20,769 bases of DNA, from the IMG/VR virus record IMGVR_UViG_3300024346_000645, positions 1 to 20,769 of that record. The stretch is one strand, 5' to 3'. Of this stretch, positions 14,992-19,600 are shown one piece after another. Source of the stretch: a virus. The translations under genes and the position numbers were made by a program. Positions within the stretch are counted from its first letter, which is position 1. Each line of letters begins with the position of its first letter. The notes under the pieces were generated by a model. It did not search any database, was not told where the DNA came from, and saw only the letters and a list, made by a program, of their open reading frames with translations.

Positions 14992-15024
14992 AAAAAAAAG
15001 CCTTACAATGTTTGTAAGGCTTTT
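14992..15024 (-). terminator. Terminator of the 42-aa cassette
   Basis: On the minus strand GCCTTACA (15013-15020) pairs perfectly with TGTAAGGC (15000-15007) around a 5-nt loop, then eight T (14992-14999). The stem is nearly the same as in the two plus-strand cassette terminators. Confidence 0.92.
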
Positions 15025-15032
15025 CATATTTT

Positions 15033-15161
15033 TTATTTACAATAAACTATTTTTTCAAACAAATCACCTAATTTTAGTAAAAGCAATTCTTCCTCCATTG
15101 TCATTGTTCCGTTATCTCTTTTGTCTTCAAGATTGTTCATTCTGTTTATTAAGTTTTCCAT
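15033..15161 (-). CDS. Cassette protein 3, 42 aa, unknown
   Basis: This short ORF begins MENLINRMNNLEDKRDNGTM and ends LFEKIVYCK. It is charged and helical, with a leucine-rich middle (EEELLLLKLGDLF) that could be a coiled coil or a peptide that binds another protein. Promoter D lies about 42 bases upstream of the ATG and a perfect hairpin terminator begins just after the stop. It is thus a promoter-ORF-terminator unit like the plus-strand cassettes, but co-directional with the phage early genes. No family is recognised. The transcription signals make expression of this locus convincing even though the ORF is tiny. Confidence 0.7.
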   Translation of the reverse strand: MENLINRMNNLEDKRDNGTMTMEEELLLLKLGDLFEKIVYCK

Positions 15162-15406: not shown

Positions 15407-15817
15407 TTATTGCTCTAATGCTTCCTTTACCTTGTGGTAGGTGTCGCTTAAATCTTGATTGTATGAATTTGGATGTAATGCGTTTTTTACTTCGTTTAAG
15501 GCATTTATTATGGTGCTGTGGTCTTTATTGCCAAATAGCTTTCCTATGTCTTTAAGGCTCATACTTGTATTATACTTTAGCCAGGCTATCAAGCTGTATC
15601 TGTAATAAATAACATCTCTTGACCTTTTATGTAAAAAATGCTTTCTGCTTACATTCAAATCATCACACAATATTTCAATATAACTTGCCACCACATTACT
15701 CAAATGGTGTCCACTTCTTTTTGGTGATATTCTGTGTATGGTTAAGTTTATTTCCTCTTGGTAATTTGGGTAATCTTCTCTTAATTGTAAAAGTTTTCCT
15801 ATTAATTCTCTGCTCAT
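15407..15817 (-). CDS. Stand-alone DnaA domain IV-like DNA-binding protein, 136 aa
   Basis: Residues 66-112 match the DnaA C-terminal DNA-binding domain: RSRDVIYYRYSLIAWLKYNT aligns with the aRqiamyL helix and DIGKLFGNKDHSTIINALNE (90-109) is the DnaA signature with its Asp-His-Ser/Thr-Thr/Ile core. There is no AAA+ ATPase or DnaB-interaction domain; the first 60 residues are short helices. The product should bind DnaA-box-like sites without forming an ATP-driven helix, so it could steer replication at the phage origin, compete with host DnaA or act as a regulator. The leader AAAACAAAACAAA before the ATG supports the start. It is co-directional with the initiator gene about 0.6 kb upstream. 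Confidence 0.85.
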   Translation of the reverse strand: MSRELIGKLLQLREDYPNYQEEINLTIHRISPKRSGHHLSNVVASYIEILCDDLNVSRKHFLHKRSRDVIYYRYSLIAWLKYNTSMSLKDIGKLFGNKDHSTIINALNEVKNALHPNSYNQDLSDTYHKVKEALEQ

Positions 15818-16047: not shown

Positions 16048-16495
16048 ATTTTATAAAATTATTTGTTTCAAAATCTTCTTGTCTTATATACAATGGTTTG
16101 CTTTGCTCTGCACTTATCCTAATCTTAACAAACTTACTAAAATCAAATGAATTATTTACCATATCTTGCCAGGTATAAACCTTCACATTTTTGTCATAGC
16201 TTACAAAATCTGCTATGCTTGGCTTTGGATATTTGCAATGATCAATCACATAGTTTACAGCATCGGTGAATCTTTCATCTGTAAAGCCATTTCGTTTAAG
16301 GCTCTCAGTTAATAAGTCTGTGAACATCGCATCGGTCTTTTCAAACGCTGCTAAGATCTTTAAGCAGTTCTTTTTGATTCCTTCTTTACTTAACTTTCCA
16401 TTGTAGATACTTATTGCACCATTATCAATCCTGGAAATGCTTGTCAATGGATGCTTCAAATTGTTCTCTTGTAATATTTCGCTTAGTTTTTCCAT
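16040..16495 (-). CDS. Probable replication accessory protein, 151 aa
   Basis: The start at 16495 overlaps the initiator gene by 71 bases, but the bases before it read ACAAAACAAA directly against the ATG, the same leader as at six other starts, so I accept it. The product (MEKLSEILQENNLKHPLTSI..., then LLTESLKRNGFTDERFTDAV and YPKPSIADFVSY) is helical in the first two thirds. It resembles the small proteins that follow phage replication initiators, some of which load helicase. No Walker motif is present. Function is inferred from position. Confidence 0.65.
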   Translation of the reverse strand: MEKLSEILQENNLKHPLTSISRIDNGAISIYNGKLSKEGIKKNCLKILAAFEKTDAMFTDLLTESLKRNGFTDERFTDAVNYVIDHCKYPKPSIADFVSYDKNVKVYTWQDMVNNSFDFSKFVKIRISAEQSKPLYIRQEDFETNNFIKYD

Positions 16496-17195
16496 TTGTT
16501 TTGTTTTTGTAATTCCCCTCTAATATCTTAATAAAATTTTGCTTTTGCATTAACCAATCAAAATCAGCTGTCCAACCCCTATTGTTGTCACCATTTAAAA
16601 ATGAAGATTCAGCAGTTAAATCTATTGCCTTTTTTAAATCATCTTTAGAATATTCTTTCATCCGATTTGTTATAAGCATTTTTCTTTTATCAGTTGCCTT
16701 TATAACTTTTGGAAGATTAACACAAACACCGTTAAAGTATTCAATAACTCCCTCAGCTAATTTATTAGCGTTATTATTCTTATTATCTTTTTTTATTTTA
16801 TCTTCTTTTATCTTATGGCTTTCATTCGGCTTTACTTCGGCTTTAGTTCGGCTTTCCGTTGGCTTTTGTTTGGCTTTTTTTGGTCTGCCTCCCATCTTGC
16901 CCTTTGCGCTATTTATAGCACTTAAAGATATGGCATTTTCACGCTGAGAATCTAAAAATTTAATTGAAATATCTTCACCTTGTAAATCTATTACACCTTC
17001 TTTAATTAACTCATTTAATGCACTTTCGTAGTTTAATCTTCTTAGCACTTGTCCTTTTGTTAATTCGCAGTTACGTTGCCAGTAATAGGCGCAAATATTA
17101 ATAAATAAACCTTGCGCTTCTAAGCTACAAAATGAAACATCTTTTGTAAGATATTCTGCTGGTTCAAATTGAAAATATGGTAGTTCTTTTGCCAT
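16425..17195 (-). CDS. Phage replication initiator (replisome organiser), 256 aa
   Basis: The N-terminal part (ELPYFQFEPAEYLTKDVSFC, then SLEAQGLFINICAYYWQRNC) resembles the winged-helix domain of Lin1244/DnaD-type phage replication proteins. A Lys-rich linker follows (100-145, with GGRPKKAKQKP). The C-terminal part (149-228) contains EYFNGVCVNLPKVIKATDKR and GWTADFDWLMQKQNFIKILE, the usual end block of Bacteroidota phage initiators. It should bind the phage origin and recruit helicase. The linker-coding DNA holds 11-bp-spaced repeats next to a very A+T-rich stretch, so the origin may lie inside the gene, as in lambda O. Upstream is a predicted structured RNA ending in a terminator. Confidence 0.75.
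   Translation of the reverse strand: MAKELPYFQFEPAEYLTKDVSFCSLEAQGLFINICAYYWQRNCELTKGQVLRRLNYESALNELIKEGVIDLQGEDISIKFLDSQRENAISLSAINSAKGKMGGRPKKAKQKPTESRTKAEVKPNESHKIKEDKIKKDNKNNNANKLAEGVIEYFNGVCVNLPKVIKATDKRKMLITNRMKEYSKDDLKKAIDLTAESSFLNGDNNRGWTADFDWLMQKQNFIKILEGNYKNKTNGKTKRNITREQFEASIDKHFQD
16740..16880. other. Candidate phage replication origin (iterons plus A+T-rich tract)
   Basis: TTCGGCTTT occurs at 16825, 16836 and 16847, followed by TTGGCTTTT at 16859 and TTGGCTTT at 16870. The spacing is 11, 11, 12 and 11 bases, about one helical turn. Immediately to the left, 16742-16816 is almost pure A/T. Iterons beside an unwinding region inside an initiator gene is the lambda-ori layout. The repeats also encode a Lys/Pro/Glu-rich linker, which could explain them in part. 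Confidence 0.5.
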
Positions 17196-17206
17196 AATAT
17201 TAGTTA

Positions 17207-17263
17207 TAAAAAAAGGCTTTAATCTACTCCTTACAAACGCACTGCAAGTTTCAAAAAAAGCCT
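17207..17263 (-). terminator. Terminator just before the initiator gene
   Basis: AGGCTTT (17257-17263) pairs with AAAGCCT (17214-17220), enclosing a second hairpin, and is followed by seven T and TATAAC. Its position between promoter and initiator gene suggests conditional read-through. Confidence 0.7.
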
Positions 17264-17310
17264 AAATATTAATTTTTTTAGCTATCGTGTGCGTTACGAT
17301 TTATTGCTAC
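17207..17310 (-). ncRNA. Predicted structured leader or small RNA with kissing loops
   Basis: On the minus strand a hairpin ATCGT-AACGCAC-ACGAT (17300 to 17284) is followed by a second hairpin CTTGCA-GTGCGTT-TGTAAG (17248 to 17230). The two 7-nt loops are exact reverse complements. The second hairpin lies inside an outer stem AGGCTTT/AAAGCCT (17257-17263 with 17214-17220) followed by seven T, an intrinsic terminator. A -7 box at 17315-17322 would start transcription about ten bases before hairpin 1. The RNA could act alone or attenuate the initiator gene, whose ATG lies 12 bases beyond the T-run. Confidence 0.6.
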
Positions 17311-19541: not shown

Positions 19542-19600
19542 AGTTGTTTTGTTTTGTTTATGCCTACTCTATTTCGGATTTTTGGCATCCTCCGTTTTGT

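Follow-up and report, generated by a model that had tools for sequence, protein, structure and literature searches.

A kissing-loop terminator leader ahead of early genes in flavobacterial phages, apparently an undescribed RNA family

The window analysed here, a virus record of 20,769 bases, carries on its minus strand, just before a replication initiator gene, a leader in which a 5′ hairpin (H1) and a second hairpin enclosed by a terminator (H2) present exactly complementary loops, AACGCAC and GTGCGTT. The same layout recurs with other loops in the relatives of this leader, and their comparison strongly supports its fold as a kissing-loop terminator leader. Judged from its sequences, the element is apparently a real regulatory RNA family that has not been described before. 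The two hairpins had been proposed in a sequence-only reading of the window, and their coordinates and loops were exact on recheck; the parts are collected in Table 1. The initiator ATG lies 12 nt past the T run. The literature that we searched says little about how Bacteroidota phages control transcription, and a widespread, strongly covarying RNA that heads early operons is directly testable because cultured phages carry it.

Table 1. Parts of the leader and the gene that follows it in the window
Feature	Position	Strand	Basis
TAnnTTTG (-7) promoter box TATCTTTG	17322-17315	minus	sequence; box in nearly all covariance-model matches
Hairpin H1, ATCGT-AACGCAC-ACGAT, 5 bp, loop 17295-17289	17300-17284	minus	sequence, folding, covariation
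A/T-rich linker, 20 nt, from H1 to terminator	17283-17264	minus	
Terminator 5′ arm AGGCTTT	17263-17257	minus	folding, covariation
Internal loop, 5′ side TTTTGAAA (GAA strand)	17256-17249	minus	sequence
Hairpin H2, CTTGCA-GTGCGTT-TGTAAG, 6 bp, loop 17242-17236	17248-17230	minus	covariation
Internal loop, 3′ side GAGTAGATT (AGUA strand)	17229-17221	minus	recurrence in relatives
Terminator 3′ arm AAAGCCT (17220-17214) and T run to 17208	17220-17208	minus	sequence
DnaD/O-like replication initiator, 256 aa, ATG at 17195	16425-17195	minus	PHROGs phrog_29280, phrog_10469, phrog_345

Thermodynamics alone is inadequate for judging the kissing contact because the folding energy of the window leader is unremarkable (z = -0.52) and nested folding cannot show loop-loop pairs. 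The case was therefore built on relatives, which were collected through loci encoding the initiator or the gene upstream of it. The Bacteroidota-type promoter box, H1, a terminator enclosing H2, and loops complementary over at least 6 nt occur together in the window and in these relatives, with loop pairs such as ATGGGAC/GTCCCAT (L006), GTCGCAC/GTGCGAC (L008), GTTACAG/CTGTAAC (L010), GTAGGAA/TTCCTAC (L030) and others. About 40 different exactly complementary pairs were found within the one layout, in phages of marine and freshwater flavobacteria. MAFFT misaligned the hairpins of the raw elements, and pairs were counted instead across seven elements that were aligned without gaps after manual trimming of the spacers (A2). 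In this alignment, two members of which (L010 and L030) came from a scanner that requires complementary loops, each of the seven kissing pairs is standard throughout, and six of them have changed on both sides; H1 (4/4 pairs), H2 and the outer stem have likewise changed on both sides. Taking all stems and the kissing helix together, 98.7% of the cells of 22 pairs are paired and 21 pairs show two-sided changes, a result reached in 0 of 500 shuffles, whereas sliding the alignment as a control left 27-49% of cells paired. The compensatory changes that the sequence-only reading had called for in both stems and in the loop pair were thus found in the covariance search of relatives, and the terminator that it had drawn around H2 is borne out by the arms and T run in the window and by an outer stem that covaries in the relatives.

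The larger set of 52 elements consists mostly of matches to two covariance models, R1 and R2, which encode H1, H2 and the outer stem and do not link the loops; the scanner supplied L052-3317, L070, L072 and L110. In 51 of the 52, the stretch before the terminator and the terminator interior are exactly complementary over 6-10 nt (at least 7 nt in 47), and every model match outside the training set has complementary loops. The remaining one, at 14993-15063 of the window, is just a plain terminator. Swapped elements, used as a control, reached at least 6 nt in 12-13% of cases and 7 nt in 3%. For 40 distinct elements the longest complementarity within an element averages 7.5 nt, against 4.58 ± 0.16 nt with permuted partners (z = 18.6), and the highest of 20,000 permutations gave 5.4 nt. 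We discarded, as circular, a further count of pairs in 30 elements that had been excised around their own kissing words. The permutation result replaces the chance of 1 in 16,000 first attached to the loops, a figure that is right for one pre-chosen pair and is uncorrected for searching.

Comparisons between close relatives point the same way. Loop variation without compensation had been named beforehand as evidence against the contact, and what was seen in the relatives does not speak against kissing. A stepwise compensated change links GTCACAG and GTTACAG in related leaders, GCTTCGAC has become GCTCTCAC with compensation in leaders before initiators identical at 252 of 255 positions, and GTGAGAAG, GTGAGACG and GTGGAACG are compensated variants in cultured Flavobacterium phages. 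L036 and L039 have initiator genes of 99.7% identity and an identical downstream stretch, yet their leaders are unrelated in sequence and have the same architecture, so that on one replication module the shape has been kept while the sequence is exchangeable. In L035, L036 and L039 (upstream of 5001) the leader is a mosaic boundary, with different leaders before near-identical initiators; L036 also carries a NUMOD4-HNH gene. We also considered diversifying selection or hypervariability of the loops and found no support for it, as close relatives retain identical loops.

The anatomy is regular in dimensions and free in sequence. In the parsed elements H1 starts near the expected transcript start, and in 44 of 45 the linker measures 10-26 nt and the rod 16-22 nt, L015 being longer in both; H1 is weak or unusual in L028, L015 and L103. 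Linker length against rod length was tried as a test of co-existence and was confounded by the delimitation of the outer stem. By a simple text rule, under which L110 is probably misassigned within its group, 28 of 40 elements have a GA-type internal loop between the outer stem and H2, either AGUA/GAA or its reverse, or UGAW/KGAU and GGAN/UGA. By analogy with known three-dimensional motifs, the first would be a bulged-G/loop E signature and the other two tandem G-A. The TTTTGAAA/GAGTAGATT loop of the window is a possible bulged-G/loop E motif by the same reasoning, and its GAA/AGUA form recurs in L036 and L096. In L040, L051, L053, L106 and their relatives the H1 loops are about 14 nt long and combine an 8-nt kissing stretch with a recurrent AYUAUA-like 3′ part, together with tandem-GA rods. 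Pairing of the linker with the 5′ terminator arm as a family-wide antiterminator helix was no better than in permuted elements (p = 0.40), and the element is therefore not a classical two-state attenuator. AAGG-type linker runs could pair with the 5′ arm in L035, L039, L040, L041, L053, L066 and L091, where they may form a subtype-specific antiterminator rather than a family-wide one.

Cultured carriers include the Cellulophaga phages phi10:1, phi19:1 and Nekkels_1, the Flavobacterium phages morran9-1, lillamy9-1, hattifnatt9-1, sniff9-2, mumin9-1, snusmum9-1 (two copies) and the F. columnare phage FCV-20, as well as Polaribacter P12002L and Croceibacter P2559S. For P12002L, where the script picked another stem, the 8-nt pair GGTCGTAG/CTACGACC comes from visual reading of the sequence. 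By blastn the morran element matches 114 phage records, 60 of them with an F. columnare host; among the matches listed, the F. columnare records cover only its 5′ half. Weak model matches in phiST, phi12:1, phi46:3, phi17:2, P12024S, FCL-2 and crAss001 did not show the layout. In Flavobacteriaceae chromosomes the models gave seven weak matches, all plain terminators without paired loops, in a search that missed G024, the carrier of L110, and is too insensitive to count as evidence of absence. Of 200 Flavobacteriaceae genomes only 1 was found to encode the initiator, which implies that integration of these phages is rare.

The window initiator has its nearest cultured-phage relatives in Cellulophaga phages phi10:1 and phi19:1. 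The initiators of the window, L006 and L030 look modular, with differing N-terminal parts, a common DnaD-like C-terminal part and the same type of leader. On the 3′ side of the window initiator, at 15407-15817 (minus), lies a gene for a 136-aa phage protein whose sole recognised part is a DnaA C-terminal DNA-binding domain (PF08299). The element had been tied to the replication initiator in the sequence-only reading, a restriction that does not hold: it also heads genes for an ERF annealing protein, a helicase-methyltransferase, an MT-A70 methyltransferase, NUMOD4-HNH endonucleases and DUF6378, and small early genes. A ligand-sensing leader, also considered there, fits poorly, since beyond the promoter, the T run and the GA-type internal loops no sequence core is conserved and the downstream genes have no metabolic theme. 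One phage may carry up to four elements, each with its own loops; the four copies of contig G001 (L143; 6461, 8494, 9819 and 13644) all differ in their loops, and in G001 and snusmum9-1 the loops and stems of copies are unlike. A loose promoter-anchored descriptor proved too noisy for copy counts.

We favour, with somewhat better than even confidence and from sequence comparison, a cis-acting leader of about 100 nt in which docking of the 5′ hairpin on a promoter-proximal terminator would set early-gene read-through. Transcription would start at the TAnnTTTG promoter and H1, at the 5′ end, would fold first. H2 would follow, and a kissing helix of 6-8 bp would join the two loops while the outer terminator arm is still to be transcribed. 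Closure of the outer stem around H2, by way of the GA-type internal loop, would then produce a rod that H1 clamps at its tip; the U tract would come after the rod, immediately 5′ of the start codon. Most transcripts would probably stop at the T run, and the docked fold would set, upward or downward, the fraction that continues into the early gene or operon, acting either alone or as a shape recognised by a host or phage factor. A point against this leader model is that the hairpins alone would be adequate terminators, and the sequence does not explain why the docking has been kept. More tentatively, at rather less than even confidence, the docked-tip terminator may be a new class of gene-control RNA in Bacteroidota phages, a sequence-independent shape signal that gates early operons, has RNA polymerase or a kissing-complex-binding factor of the phage or host as its reader, and carries loops that are mutually orthogonal within a genome. 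The element is also an example of a terminator built as a tertiary structure, and its roughly 40 intramolecular kissing pairs of 6-10 nt amount to a natural library for RNA design.

Of the other explanations, a processive antiterminator would be the first to consider, and we regard it as unlikely. The docked RNA would bind host RNA polymerase and carry it past its own and later terminators, and without docking transcription would end at once. Placement directly behind early-gene promoters, several copies per phage and conservation of shape rather than sequence all agree with this, and HK022 put is a precedent: its nascent RNA forms two stem-loops behind early promoters and needs no partner to act on the elongation complex (PMC9378689). 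Against it, put copies have sequence in common and the copies described here do not, and in the present element the fold takes in the terminator.

The product might also be the terminated RNA itself, a stand-alone small RNA of about 100 nt with the 5′ hairpin closing the 3′ terminator loop, which would work in trans or serve as a decoy while the next gene simply gained from read-through. Its own promoter box and terminator and its compact closed fold suit such a role, which we nevertheless hold to be improbable. An early gene nearly always follows within tens of bases; where an ORF was found (36 elements) the start codon lies 3-47 nt past the T run, and in most elements a second promoter therefore has little or no room. 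Loops that differ among the copies of one phage also leave no constant target site visible. Action in trans had been raised in the sequence-only reading as well, and wherever word length allows a judgement a partner encoded by the phage is unlikely: outside the element, the 8-nt loop words do not occur in morran9-1 nor, in the case of two copies, in G001, which favours pairing in cis. The 7-mers of Nekkels_1, phi10:1, the window and a third G001 copy recur at frequencies close to chance or moderately higher and are uninformative.

A still weaker candidate, which we consider very improbable, is a specificity or exclusion RNA whose loops tell phages apart, comparable with plasmid antisense copy control, the free leader of one phage pairing with the nascent leader of another. 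The many loop pairs, all different within one phage, and the near-identical replication modules with different leaders would be expected of such a system, but close relatives with identical loops argue against hypervariability, the leader difference between L035 and L039 falls on a mosaic boundary, with upstream genes that are different as well, and intramolecular pairing should beat pairing in trans. That the repeats act as DNA, as an operator pair or recombination site, is scarcely credible: elements can sit at mosaic junctions, but H1, H2 and the outer stem covary separately, T runs and internal loops of the GA type are recurrent features, and the words are unrelated between the copies of one phage, so that a single protein could not recognise every copy as DNA.

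The impression that no described family has this layout was confirmed as far as we could follow it. Rfam 15, searched at gathering and loose thresholds with the window and eight further loci, has no family over the element, and our literature search, whose reach did not extend to the Weinberg 2017 motif paper, found no published description. The only Rfam match, DUF805b, lies outside the element, at 19561-19595 (minus; 45.1 bits), about 20 nt 5′ of an exonuclease-like gene; a second DUF805b RNA stands immediately 5′ of another gene in morran9-1 (L016, 1300-1334), and DUF805b is therefore present in flavobacterial phages too. We class the element among promoter-proximal terminators, as a new RNA family whose tertiary contact had no described counterpart that we could find. 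The known systems closest to it each have only single aspects in common with it. In HK022 put, early phage promoters are followed by two hairpins of the nascent RNA, and a phage has more than one copy (PMC9378689). The element likewise has two stem-loops behind a promoter whose early timing would follow from the downstream genes, but its copies within one phage are not alike in sequence as put copies are, and its hosts belong to another phylum. To our knowledge put has neither a built-in terminator nor a variable complementary loop pair. The PeSL motifs of T4-type phages, cited in PMC4503421, are compact cassettes of promoter and stem-loop that are repeated in the phage genome and tied to gene shuffling. 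The element may resemble them as a compact cassette in repeated copies, and it lies at mosaic junctions in L035, L036 and L039. The PeSL terminator ends upstream transcription, whereas in the element, which is found in other phages, it follows the promoter; we know of no paired loops described for PeSL. The late leader of lambda at PR′-tR′ also has a promoter, a short terminated RNA and downstream genes that need read-through, but it works through a DNA-bound Q protein with no kissing RNA and serves late genes, whereas the element heads early ones. The P4 CI and P1 c4 immunity RNAs, from phages of Proteobacteria, similarly place complementary stretches in an early-ending phage leader before replication or antirepressor genes; they are processed, antisense-like RNAs of conserved sequence (c4 is Rfam RF01695), whereas the element has no Rfam match. 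The contact itself has a parallel in ColE1 RNA I/RNA II and pT181-type antisense attenuation, where loop-loop recognition controls replication genes through fully complementary 7-nt hairpin loops and Rop recognises the kissing shape with little regard to sequence. The window has loops of that length and kind before a replication gene, but there two RNAs come from opposite strands, whereas in the element both loops lie on one transcript.
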